Assembly: GCA_905233855.1 (NCBI GenBank) | Contig: CAJOGA010000008.1 | Coordinates: 1-35,622, forward strand | Origin: an uncultured Clostridia bacterium | Lineage (GTDB): Bacteria; Bacillota; Clostridia; UBA1381; CAJOGA01 | DNA length: 35,622 nt | Direction: 5' to 3' | Shown here: piece by piece, positions 20,166 through 27,805 of the stretch | Position numbering within the stretch: position 1 is the stretch's first letter | Layout: every line of letters begins with the position of its first letter | The notes under the pieces: generated by a model | Databases searched by the model: none | What the model was told of the DNA's origin: nothing | What the model saw: the letters and a program-made list of their open reading frames with translations, nothing else | Translations under genes and position numbers: made by a program

Positions 20166-20774
20166 TTATTCGCTGTACTCTCTGACCCTGAAGGTTACGC
20201 CAATATTTTGAGCAATTTTCCTGCATTCTTCAATATCCTCAGGGGGGATAATATCTACAACGCTCAGAATAACGTTTTTAACATGGTCTTTGGCTTTTTT
20301 TGCAAAGTCGAGCATATAGTAAAACCCGTCTTCTTTATAGTCGCTCTGACAGACCTTTTCGTATTCCTGTGCGTTTTTTCCGTTTAAGCTTATTGATATT
20401 GTGTCCACCAGTCCTTCCATTAACGGTGTAACGTCTTTATCGAATATTTTGTTTGCATGACCGTTTGTATTGATGCGTACAGGGATGTCGGCGTTTTGCT
20501 TGATCGCCTTGCAAACCTCCATAACATCGTAGAAACGCATAAGCGGTTCGCCATAGCCGCAGAAGACGATTTCGTCAAACGTTTCTTCGCCCAAACGTTT
20601 CAGAATTTCAGCCGTTATTTCCTGCTGAGTAGGTTCGCTGTCCAACCAGAGATCTATTCCTTCGCCGACGCCTGAAGGTGTGTAGCGTATACAGAAGGTG
20701 CATCGGTTTGTGCAGCGGTTTGTAACATTTATATACAGTGAGTTTCCTATTTTATATGTAATTGTGTTTGCCAA
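20166..20774 (-). CDS. TatD-associated radical SAM protein
   Basis: A 202-aa radical SAM enzyme. The [4Fe-4S] ligands are Cys21, Cys25 and Cys28 in NRCTNRCTFC. The GYGEP motif binds SAM, and RINTNGHANKI follows the usual beta-strand order. Small single-domain proteins of this type next to tatD form a recognised family (TatD-linked rSAM); the reaction is not known. It lies directly downstream of tatD (23 nt), keeping that pairing. It lacks a SPASM or B12 domain, so the auxiliary chemistry is limited to the radical SAM core. Confidence 0.88.
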   Translation of the reverse strand: MANTITYKIGNSLYINVTNRCTNRCTFCIRYTPSGVGEGIDLWLDSEPTQQEITAEILKRLGEETFDEIVFCGYGEPLMRFYDVMEVCKAIKQNADIPVRINTNGHANKIFDKDVTPLMEGLVDTISISLNGKNAQEYEKVCQSDYKEDGFYYMLDFAKKAKDHVKNVILSVVDIIPPEDIEECRKIAQNIGVTFRVREYSE

Positions 20775-20797
20775 AATACTAAAGCTCCTTTCGGTAG

Positions 20798-21565
20798 TTA
20801 TTTTATTTTAAATATATCTTTTGCGTTTTTGACGGTCGCTTCGGCAACATCTTCAAAGGATATACCTTTTAACTGTGCAATTTTTTCGGCGACATACCGT
20901 ACATTCAGCGGACTGTTTCGCTTTCCGCGGTTAGGCTCGGGCGAAAGATACGGACTGTCGGTTTCTATTAAAAGTCTGTCCAGCGGGACAAATTTGGCAA
21001 CATCTACCAGCTTTGCGGCGTTTTTAAAGGTTACCGGTCCGGCAAACGACACATACATTCCCATGTCCAGCACACGCTTTGCCATCTCCACACTGCCTGA
21101 AAAACAATGGAGTATTCCGCCGATTTTGTTCACCTTTTTGTCTTTCAATATTTTCAGACAATCCTCGTGTGCGTCGCGGTCGTGTATGATAACGGGCAGA
21201 GACAAATCGTGTGCCAGATCCATCTGCTTTTCAAACCAGAATTTTTGATCATCTTTTGATATATTGTCGTAGTGATAGTCAAGTCCTATTTCACCAACTG
21301 CCCTCACTTTCGGATGCTTTGCAAGAGATGCAAAACGCACAAGCGTGTTATCGTCTATACACGACGCATATTCCGGGTGAGCACCGACAGAAGCGTACAC
21401 AAACGGGTATTTATCCGCTATTTTAATTATTCTTTCCAAATCGTCGGGGTTTGCCGATGCGTTCATCACATAAGAAATGCCGTTTTCCGGCATGGATGCG
21501 ATAAGGGCGTCCCTGTCTTCGTTAAAACGTTCATCGTCCAGATGAGCATGAGAGTCAAAAAGCAT
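20798..21565 (-). CDS. tatD: TatD-family metal-dependent DNase
   Basis: A 255-aa TIM-barrel hydrolase. Metal ligands are visible in order: DSHAHLD (His6, His8), GEIGLDYH (Glu), IIHDRDAHED (His), GILHCFSG (His) and ETDSPYLSP (Asp). Members are reported as 3'-5' exonucleases or deoxyribonucleases in repair and RNA/DNA turnover. It is coupled in the operon to the TatD-linked radical SAM protein. The ribosome binding site AAAGGA is upstream of the ATG. The 66-nt gap to the preceding gene (21566-21631) shows no clear promoter. Confidence 0.94.
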   Translation of the reverse strand: MLFDSHAHLDDERFNEDRDALIASMPENGISYVMNASANPDDLERIIKIADKYPFVYASVGAHPEYASCIDDNTLVRFASLAKHPKVRAVGEIGLDYHYDNISKDDQKFWFEKQMDLAHDLSLPVIIHDRDAHEDCLKILKDKKVNKIGGILHCFSGSVEMAKRVLDMGMYVSFAGPVTFKNAAKLVDVAKFVPLDRLLIETDSPYLSPEPNRGKRNSPLNVRYVAEKIAQLKGISFEDVAEATVKNAKDIFKIK

Positions 21566-24897: not shown

Positions 24898-26067
24898 TTA
24901 TTTACGGTATTTAATTTCTCCGTTTATTATTGTCGCAATAACTTCGTAGTCGAATTCCACAGGTGGTTTTGTTACTATTATTATGTCGGCGTCTTTGCCT
25001 TTTTCCAAAGTGCCTATTCTGTCATCAAGATAACAGTTTTTTGCACTGTTTACCGTTAAAGCCTCAAGTGCTTTTTTTCTGTCCATACCGCTTTTAACCG
25101 CTAAAGATGCACACAGAGGAAGGTATTCTACCGGTATAACGGGATGGTCGGTTATTATTGCAATGTCCAGCCCTGCGTCGGACAGGATTTTGCAGGTATC
25201 AAAGCTGAGGTTTTTAAGCTCTATCTTGCTTCTTTCGCACAAGCTCGGTCCCACCATAAGCCTTGCATTTGCACTTTTTAACGTTTCTGCAATGCAAACG
25301 CCGTCGGTTGCGTGTTCTATGGTAACGTTTATGTCAAATTCCTTTGCAAGCCTTAACGCTGTTGCGATGTCATCACTGCGATGGGCGTGTATTTTTGCCG
25401 GGATTTTCTTTTCTATCAGCGGAAGCAGAGCGTCGGCACGTATATCAAAATCGGGACGGTCGTTATCCGCAGGATTTGCGTTATATCTGTCCCACTTTGC
25501 TTTATACTCCTTCGCCGCATACAGCTGCTCGCGTATCACAGCGGCTGTGCCCATACGTGTGGTCGGCAGTTGGTTTTTTTCTTTATACACCGTTTTCGGA
25601 TTTTCGCCCAGCGACATTTTTATTGATTGCGGTGCTTTTAAGATCATGTCGTCAATGACAGTGCCGGCCGTTTTTACGGCGGCGAACTGACCGCTTATCG
25701 GGTTGGCACTGCCGGGACCTGTTACAACGGTGGTTATGCCGGCTTTACATGCATCTTTAAAGCAGCGGTCGTTCGGATTTATTCCGTCTATGGCACGCAG
25801 GTGCGGAGTGGCAGGGTCGGTGGCTTCGTTGGCGTCGTCGCCTTCAAAGCCCATCGAGTCCTCAAACATTCCGCAATGACAGTGTGCGTCTATCATGCCG
25901 GGCATTACAATGTTGCCGCCGGCGTCGATTTCGTCTGTTATATCAAAATTTTTAATGCCGCCGGAATCGCCTACATACTCAATTTTGCCGTTGCTGCACA
26001 CAACGGAGCCATTTTCGAATACGTCGCCCGACATGGTTATTATCTTTCCGTTTTTAATCAAAAGCAT
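24898..26067 (-). CDS. Amidohydrolase (imidazolonepropionase-like family)
   Basis: A 389-aa metal-dependent hydrolase. Metal ligands are seen in DAHCH (His62, His64), IHAHRSDDI (His), TIEHATDG (His) and ITDHPV (Asp). The N-terminal composite beta-sandwich starts MLLIKNGKIITM and the C-terminal part ends with the usual GTLEKGKDADIIIV. The substrate is unknown; the family acts on cyclic amides, peptides or nucleobase derivatives. It is the first gene after a strong promoter at 26115-26143 and heads the nine-gene minus-strand unit. Confidence 0.88.
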   Translation of the reverse strand: MLLIKNGKIITMSGDVFENGSVVCSNGKIEYVGDSGGIKNFDITDEIDAGGNIVMPGMIDAHCHCGMFEDSMGFEGDDANEATDPATPHLRAIDGINPNDRCFKDACKAGITTVVTGPGSANPISGQFAAVKTAGTVIDDMILKAPQSIKMSLGENPKTVYKEKNQLPTTRMGTAAVIREQLYAAKEYKAKWDRYNANPADNDRPDFDIRADALLPLIEKKIPAKIHAHRSDDIATALRLAKEFDINVTIEHATDGVCIAETLKSANARLMVGPSLCERSKIELKNLSFDTCKILSDAGLDIAIITDHPVIPVEYLPLCASLAVKSGMDRKKALEALTVNSAKNCYLDDRIGTLEKGKDADIIIVTKPPVEFDYEVIATIINGEIKYRK

Positions 26068-26114: not shown

Positions 26115-26143
26115 ATTATACCAGTGTTTTTTGTAAAATGCAA
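26115..26143 (-). promoter_or_regulatory. Promoter of the amidohydrolase-to-dusB operon
   Basis: On the minus strand TTGCAT (26143-26138), 17-nt spacer, perfect TATAAT (26120-26115), with an extended -10 TG. It lies in the short gap after the desulfurase gene (stop at 26151). It separates the desulfurase/DUF3343 unit from the nine genes downstream, whose gaps are 6-66 nt. Confidence 0.75.
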
Positions 26144-26150
26144 TTATTTT

Positions 26151-27287
26151 TCATGCATGCTTTGCGATTTGGCTGACAGCGTGTAAAAGCTTGTCAATAT
26201 CGGCTTGATTGTTATAAAATCCGACGCTTGCACGCACAGTGCCGCCATCATGCGTACCCATGCATTTGTGTGCCGAGTATGCACAATGATACCCCGCACG
26301 CACGGCTATGCCGTATTTTTCGTCCAGCTCCTGCGACACCGATACCGCATCGATGCCGTATATATTAAAGCTTACCGTACCGTTGCGTTTTGTAAAGTCG
26401 TCTGTTGCATACACCGTAACGGACGGTATGTTTTTCAGACCGTCAAACAGCAATTTGGCTAAAGAAGTTTCATGGGAATAAATATAGTCGATACCGACGC
26501 TGTTTATAAAATTCACGGCACCGGAAAGGCTTGCGACCGCAGGTGTGTTCAAAGTTCCGCTTTGCAACATATCCGGCATAAAATCAGGCTGCTCAAGGCT
26601 TTCCGAAAAGCTGCCCGTGCCGCCCGTTATAACAGGCACAAGACGCACGTTTTCCGATACATACAAGCCTCCGGTGCCCATCGGTCCCATAAGACCTTTA
26701 TGTCCGGAAAAGGCGAGCATATCTATATTCATGTCTTTAACGTCTATATCGACGCTGCCGGCGGTTTGTGCGGCGTCTGCCAAAAAAACAATACCGTGAT
26801 TTTTGCATATTTTTCCTATTTGCTTTATCGGCTGTATCGTGCCGAATACGTTTGAGGCATGCGTGCATATTATCAGGCAGGTGTCCGGCTGTATGGCGTC
26901 TTCAATGCGTTTGGGATCGACAATGCCGCTTTTATCCGGCTCTACAACGGTGCAGGTTACGTTTTCCGTGCGGTGCAGCGGACGCATAACGCTGTTATGC
27001 TCCAGTGCCGTACAAATAACGTGTCCGCCGTTTTGCAAAAACCCGTTTATTGCAAAGTTCAGAGCGGTGGTTGCATTGTTTGTGAAGGCTATTTGTTCCG
27101 GCGAGGAGATGTTGAAAAAGGACGCAAGAGCTTGCGATGCGTCCAATATACGCATAGAAGCCTCCCGGCTGTAGTAATGTCCGCCTCTGCCCGAATTTGC
27201 ACTTAACTGTTTTGTCAGCTTTGTCATGCTTTTTATAACGCATGGCGGTTTTTTCAGGGTGGTTGATGCATTATCAAGGTATATCAT
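26151..27287 (-). CDS. Cysteine desulfurase family protein (DUF3343-associated type)
   Basis: A 378-aa PLP enzyme distinct from the nifS at 140. PLP lysine Lys197 is in FSGHKGLMGP. The candidate catalytic Cys335 is in AGYHCAYSAHK, on a short loop as in SufS/CsdA (group II), not the long SSGSAC loop. Group-II-like enzymes often act with a partner or on selenocysteine/cysteine, and this subfamily (TIGR01977 type) is known to sit beside DUF3343. Its ATG overlaps the DUF3343 stop (ATGA), so the two are translationally coupled. It may serve a dedicated sulfur or selenium transfer pathway; the acceptor is unknown. Confidence 0.88.
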   Translation of the reverse strand: MIYLDNASTTLKKPPCVIKSMTKLTKQLSANSGRGGHYYSREASMRILDASQALASFFNISSPEQIAFTNNATTALNFAINGFLQNGGHVICTALEHNSVMRPLHRTENVTCTVVEPDKSGIVDPKRIEDAIQPDTCLIICTHASNVFGTIQPIKQIGKICKNHGIVFLADAAQTAGSVDIDVKDMNIDMLAFSGHKGLMGPMGTGGLYVSENVRLVPVITGGTGSFSESLEQPDFMPDMLQSGTLNTPAVASLSGAVNFINSVGIDYIYSHETSLAKLLFDGLKNIPSVTVYATDDFTKRNGTVSFNIYGIDAVSVSQELDEKYGIAVRAGYHCAYSAHKCMGTHDGGTVRASVGFYNNQADIDKLLHAVSQIAKHA

Positions 27288-27544
27288 ATGGGTATATACT
27301 CCTTTTGACCGAGGCTGTTATAGCTTTCTGCATAGATGTTTATTTTCTTCAGCCCCTCCGAACGTGCCAGATCTGCAATTTGTCCGGCAAATTCGCGGCG
27401 GAAGCGTATGCTGTAAGAACAGCCGCCCGATTTTATACTTGTAGGTGTCTGCACAACGCTTATGTGCGGGATTTTGTTTTCTATACTCTTTTTGAACAGA
27501 TTCGTCTTTGTTACAGAACCTGTGATAAGCAATGCATATTCCAT
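27284..27544 (-). CDS. DUF3343 protein, putative sulfur/selenium carrier
   Basis: An 86-aa protein with the DUF3343 signature KSGGCSYSIRF around Cys42, a single conserved cysteine suited to hold a persulfide or selenide. The fold is probably ferredoxin-like. Its role is inferred only from its frequent place beside desulfurases and selenium genes. Here it comes first and overlaps the desulfurase by 4 nt. GAAAGGA precedes the start. The upstream region holds a 26-bp palindrome. No selD or yedF is in this window. Confidence 0.85.
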   Translation of the reverse strand: MEYALLITGSVTKTNLFKKSIENKIPHISVVQTPTSIKSGGCSYSIRFRREFAGQIADLARSEGLKKINIYAESYNSLGQKEYIPI

Positions 27545-27651
27545 AAAATGTTCGTCCTTTCGGTTATTTTGATTTGTGAGACTTTTGCGTTCCGGTATTC
27601 AGTATATGCATGTCGAATGATTATTGCACATGACGGTTGCGGAAAAATCAA

Positions 27652-27693
27652 CATACCCACCATATATAGTAGGTATGAAAAAATGTAACACAA
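27652..27693 (-). promoter_or_regulatory. 26-bp palindrome over the likely DUF3343/desulfurase promoter
   Basis: The dyad spans 27652-27677: half CATACCCACCATA and its near-complement TATAGTAGGTATG, matching at 11 of 13 positions. A candidate minus-strand promoter is TTGTGT (27693-27688), 16-nt spacer, TACTAT (27671-27666), whose -10 lies inside the dyad. This is the layout of a repressor site. The plus-strand mraZ promoter is about 50 nt away, so it could also affect mraZ. The regulator is unknown. Confidence 0.55.
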
Positions 27694-27728
27694 TTGCAAA
27701 AAAAATTTCATATAATTGATAAAAACTA

Positions 27729-27757
27729 TTGATTTTTTCAATTTTGTGGAGTAAAAT
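27729..27757 (+). promoter_or_regulatory. mraZ (dcw cluster) promoter
   Basis: TTGATT (27729-27734), 17-nt spacer, TAAAAT (27752-27757). The start site would be near 27764, just before the probable MraZ operator repeats. A second TATAAT at 27711 lacks a -35. Confidence 0.6.
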
Positions 27758-27775: not shown

Positions 27776-27805
27776 TGTGGTTCAAAATGGTTTAAAATGA
27801 AAGGC
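27776..27805 (+). promoter_or_regulatory. Probable MraZ autoregulatory operator: three 10-bp direct repeats
   Basis: TGTGGTTCAA, AATGGTTTAA and AATGAAAGGC follow each other at exactly 10-nt steps, with the pattern (t/a)TG(G/A). MraZ from other bacteria binds short direct repeats spaced one helical turn apart in its own promoter. The position here, right after the promoter and before the gene, fits autorepression. The third unit is degenerate and overlaps the ribosome binding site. Confidence 0.5.

Follow-up and report, generated by a model that had tools for sequence, protein, structure and literature searches.

Pairs of a DUF3343 protein and a cysteine desulfurase encoded side by side are the closest described systems. 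Lin et al. 2015 (PMC5322559) proposed DUF3343 as a selenium or sulfur carrier and reported it in SelD-positive and SelD-negative organisms alike, without a clear selenium branch. The pair studied here is like theirs in that both families are adjacent, the cysteine of DUF3343 is conserved, SelD-negative organisms are included and selenium or sulfur trafficking is proposed. Class II cysteine desulfurases, which have the consensus RXGHHCA and a short, rigid loop, need specific acceptor or partner proteins (PMC8300815). SufS and CsdA, with SufE, SufU or CsdE, offer a likeness in mode of action, since they also combine a short-loop class II desulfurase with a dedicated small acceptor. In Bacillus subtilis, the NifZ-ThiI and YrvO-MnmA pairs have one desulfurase for each partner gene. 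SclA of Enterococcus faecalis (NF040779), a selenocysteine lyase, belongs to the same TIGR01977-level family as our desulfurase. A biochemical test of the subfamily treated here was not found in the literature.

The window analyzed is a whole stretch of 35,622 nucleotides, contig CAJOGA010000008.1 from an uncultured Clostridia bacterium. On its minus strand, a gene for a putative sulfur carrier of the DUF3343 family (PF11823; 27284–27544; 86 amino acids, with Cys42 in GGCSYS) is followed by a desulfurase gene (26151–27287; 378 amino acids; class II-like, TIGR01977). The two overlap by an ATGA stop/start at 27284–27287 (minus strand), which would couple their translation, and the Shine-Dalgarno-like sequence AAAAGGAG of the desulfurase is within the terminal part of the DUF3343 gene, around 27306–27299 on the same strand. 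The first-pass annotation had reported these two genes with a 4-nt overlap as a pair already known from genomes but of unsettled function, and each point agrees with the sequence and with the literature found; both genes lie where it had placed them. DUF3343-desulfurase is thus a known, uncharacterized and well conserved pair. Just 3′ of the desulfurase gene and ahead of an amidohydrolase gene (24898–26067), a TTGCAT-17-TATAAT site with a TG before its -10 was seen by eye at 26115–26143 (minus strand), below the threshold of the promoter scan. This site suggests an operon of just the two genes, with a separate promoter for the amidohydrolase. Elsewhere in the window, a TatD nuclease gene followed by a radical SAM protein gene (TIGR04038, with TIGR04100 just below cut-off) occupies 20166–21565 on the minus strand; this is a recurrent pair.

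The desulfurase is a full-length member of TIGR01977, scoring 458.9 bits over residues 2–374 against a cut-off of 377. With the SclA selenocysteine lyase model NF040779, its score of 362.3 bits was below the cut-off of 525. The class II signature is present as RAGYHCAY at the catalytic Cys335, together with the PLP lysine Lys197, and both residues are invariant in 168/168 aligned relatives. The best matches in the PDB were SufS-type cysteine desulfurases, and alignment to the top one, 5b7s, showed that the extended loop is absent, which bears out the short-loop catalytic cysteine that had been proposed. The NifS encoded in the same window is unlike it, having the class I motif SSGSACTS.

To see the pair in context, we surveyed 168 desulfurase loci from the class and from outside it, and compared an order sample of 61 genomes, our own included; the relatives in this sample belong to other families of that order and none to the family of our genome. 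DUF3343 was adjacent at 74 of the 168 loci, lying upstream of the desulfurase at 65 (43 of them overlapping its start) and downstream at 9. The other 94 loci had no adjacent DUF3343 and, thus, it is not an obligate neighbor across the class. Within the order, the overlap is 4 nt in most of family f3, as here, and 14 or 17 nt in f4, while family f2 has both genes but apart. At four loci of f2 (L091–L094), a DUF3343 gene whose product has a [NG]GC[ST]YS-like motif stands without a neighboring desulfurase; the genes around it are conserved and include pyrE-like, radC-like and YebC-like ones, identified by eye from their sequences. In the 61 genomes, the two genes tended to be present or lost together, with a raw table of 47/5/4/5 (Fisher p = 0.004), or 50/5/1/5 (p = 2e-4) once three DUF3343 genes missed by BLAST were added, both uncorrected for phylogeny. 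Clustering of the neighbors across the order revealed no conserved third gene by the pair. A link with mraZ was rejected, as mraZ is not beside the pair in relatives.

The DUF3343 protein is barely a member of PF11823 ("Putative Se/S carrier protein-like"), at 25.6 bits against a cut-off of 25. Cys42 is its sole cysteine and is invariant in 74/74 adjacent homologues, as expected from the earlier claim of a single conserved cysteine; together with the overlap, these residues support the view of the pair as a conserved unit whose genes overlap translationally and whose cysteines do not vary. An AlphaFold2 model (pLDDT 91.9) has the order b-a-b-b-a-b-b and places Cys42 in the loop joining strands 2 and 3, a plausible position for persulfide uptake. 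By sequence, DUF3343 had zero matches to solved proteins, acceptors of the SufE, SufU and CsdE type included. A fold search gave PII/GlnK-like proteins at the top, with a best E of 5e-3, none below 0.001 and TM up to about 0.57. We take these matches to reflect a shared, generic PII/ferredoxin-like fold only, and no solved structure was accepted as identifying the protein. They do raise the idea that DUF3343, instead of being a carrier, regulates the desulfurase as an allosteric or docking subunit, an idea that also agrees with the separated genes of f2. Matches this weak are expected for any ferredoxin-like fold, however, and an invariant cysteine located in a loop suits a role in transfer, so we regard the regulatory role as improbable.

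The first-pass annotation had also pointed to a near-perfect palindrome covering the likely -10 as a handle on the signal that controls the pair. An imperfect 26-bp dyad, CATACCTACTATATATGGTGGGTATG, does exist at 27652–27677 (minus strand, read 27677–27652), with 11/13 pairs complementary, in the 275-bp divergent intergenic region common to the pair and mraZ. Against 1000 dinucleotide shuffles of this region it is barely beyond chance (p = 0.057); stronger dyads occur in three further intergenic regions of the window. The position of the -10 did not stand: the sequence that best matches a sigma-70-like promoter for the pair, TTGAAA-18-AATTAT (27712–27741, minus strand; 9/12 positions; 4 matches of such quality in the region vs 1.7 expected), is upstream of the dyad and, therefore, the dyad would fall in the 5′ leader. 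On the other strand of this region, ten-base-period repeats, TGGTTCAAAA-TGGTTTAAAA-TG, lie at 27778–27799 (plus strand) between the mraZ promoter match (27729–27757) and mraZ; they resemble TGG-N7 repeats and may be a MraZ autoregulatory operator.

One explanation is that the dyad serves as an operator at which a repressor or activator controls the pair. Its complementarity, its GC-containing arms amid an AT-rich region and its place in a divergent intergenic region common to mraZ would suit this, but the shuffle result does not favor it, nor do the searches for further copies. A genome scan for CATACC-N14-GGTATG found one other exact site and, with up to one mismatch, three near matches vs three for a reversed-pattern control. 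A genome-wide regulon motif was rejected on these few sites. A scan for the best palindrome upstream of 36 related genes, all from other families of the order, gave no dyad of this kind recurring at one position, so the proposed comparison of upstream regions, made at the level of the order, did not find the motif conserved. A half-site scan with 12–16 nt spacing upstream of the relatives gave 5 two-mismatch cases vs 1.8 expected, at scattered positions. In one locus (L030 of G018), CATACTATAATAGTATG spans a -10-like sequence; this was treated as coincidence because the same-genus genome G060 (L029) does not have it. Overall, an operator seems doubtful.

The other explanation is a hairpin in the minus-strand RNA, either an intrinsic terminator or a leader attenuator, which perhaps only insulates the pair from antisense transcription of the cell-division cluster. 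Both mismatches of the dyad are T-G, which can pair as G-U in RNA from the strand of the pair; this RNA has an 11-bp stem and a 4-nt loop followed by TTGATTTTT (-13.6 kcal/mol); the plus strand folds worse. There was one terminator-like match at the dyad vs 0.2 expected, the fold had a z of -3.2 for a chosen 51 nt, and the best promoter match being upstream is also consistent with a leader element. For these pairing properties, the dyad leans to an RNA hairpin over a protein-binding site. On the other hand, the wobble-aware dyad score is near chance and unremarkable for the region (p = 0.08), the U tract is short, and a terminator-like hairpin within 250 nt was found at just 7/62 upstream-type loci (0.9 expected from shuffles), at varied positions; those 7 are probably the ends of upstream genes. 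There was no Rfam match at gathering score, and isrN was dismissed as a weak match (17.5 bits, threshold 44) on the opposite strand. We hold the hairpin as a tentative explanation, somewhat short of an even chance. These data did not support the palindrome as a handle on regulation, and it is of no ready use as one before closer relatives have been compared.

Next, the pair was compared with the other sulfur routes of the genome. The nifS-nifU pair claimed for the window is present, followed by mnmA (140–2875). Four strong PF00266 matches were found in the genome: the window desulfurase, NifS, a NifS/IscS-like enzyme and SerC. NifS adjoins NifU and MnmA, and the NifS/IscS-like desulfurase is directly 5′ of ThiI (G000:C48:6525-8809), an arrangement that recalls NifZ-ThiI of B. 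subtilis (PMC5372739). Since these two desulfurases are already partnered, the s2U, s4U and Fe-S routes have other candidate donors. Supply of ThiI or MnmA by the window desulfurase was rejected, as each has its own adjacent desulfurase. The genome thus shares ThiI-linked and MnmA-linked desulfurases with B. subtilis, whose partners are tRNA thiolases, whereas the partner in our pair is a small cysteine protein. TusA is absent from the genome, PF11823 occurs in it once, and no suf genes are in the window.

Taken together, the two-gene operon is probably a dedicated sulfur relay, with transfer from the persulfide on Cys335 of the desulfurase to Cys42 of DUF3343 and on to an acceptor. The desulfurase would take sulfur off L-cysteine to form the persulfide on Cys335, and DUF3343, by accepting it on Cys42, would complete the turnover of this short-loop enzyme and carry the sulfur onward. 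The model also supposes that the two proteins form a complex and that it is specific for sulfur; sulfur is taken as the cargo since the genome lacks selenophosphate synthetase. By analogy, the pair's mode of action is most likely that of SufS-SufE or CsdA-CsdE, although it belongs to neither system; the transfer step is predicted, and DUF3343 has no detected sequence relationship to their acceptors.

The earlier suggestion that the pair feeds a different sulfur or selenium acceptor held as far as the distinction from NifS/NifU goes, and could be sharpened toward sulfur. SelD is absent from the genome, which is 97.65% complete and has only a partial match of 28.9 bits against a cut-off of 125; a selenium utilization trait was rejected for this organism for that reason. 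SelD occurs in 2 of the 61 genomes of the order sample (G014 and G042) and is absent from 59, our own included. The adjacent pairs fall into two types. Those with DUF3343 upstream have a GC[SG]Y-type motif and are accompanied by SelD in 6/65 cases, the other 59 being in SelD-negative genomes. The downstream type has an xCG[LVY][AC] motif and is in SelD-positive genomes in 8/9 cases (L042, L049, L085, L086, L190, L204, L209 and L218). Gene order and SelD were associated by Fisher's test at p = 1.6e-6, which overstates the case because the two types are grouped on the tree of the desulfurases, with 4 changes, and so represent few evolutionary events; a phylogeny-aware independent-pairs test had too few independent pairs to decide. 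More telling than the Fisher test is the coexistence of both types in four SelD-positive genomes (G014, G042, G109 and G189). The downstream-type desulfurase is about 2 kb or less from selD in G109, G189 and G136, and in G014 and G042 the GGCSYS pair and selD are on different contigs. An exception is G188, where an overlapping upstream pair with an AGCGLC motif adjoins selD. In view of the missing SelD in our genome, its rarity in the order and the mostly SelD-negative upstream type, these sequence comparisons indicate that the window pair likely carries sulfur rather than selenium.

Selenium handling, in which the desulfurase would be a selenocysteine lyase and DUF3343 a selenium carrier, has points in its favor. 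In organisms that use selenium, SelD and YedF are clustered with both DUF3343 and this desulfurase family (PMC5322559), the desulfurase reaches 362 bits on the SclA model, and E. faecalis SclA prefers selenocysteine (PMC13188914). The SclA cut-off of 525 is well above that score, though, the genome is without SelD, and the form that is linked to SelD differs from ours in both gene order and motif. Selenium handling by this pair is, therefore, very unlikely. Unlike the earlier survey, which saw no selenium-specific DUF3343 branch (PMC5322559), gene order and cysteine motif together separate two types here. A possible, still tentative interpretation is that two functional systems exist, which one cell can have side by side. 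In the first, which would be dedicated to sulfur, DUF3343 is upstream, often overlaps the desulfurase and has the GC[SG]Y motif; in the second, which would be dedicated to selenium, it is downstream with xCG[LV][AC], often by selD. The window pair would be of the sulfur type and would feed an acceptor apart from the established Fe-S, s2U and s4U routes.

The pair itself is mostly known already, and the two-type pattern is a useful addition. The split in gene order and motif offers an easy way of guessing whether a pair serves sulfur or selenium, and it picks G014, G042, G109 and G189 for testing the types against each other. The usual description of DUF3343 is as a candidate selenium chaperone, but the majority of the adjacent pairs found here are in SelD-negative genomes.
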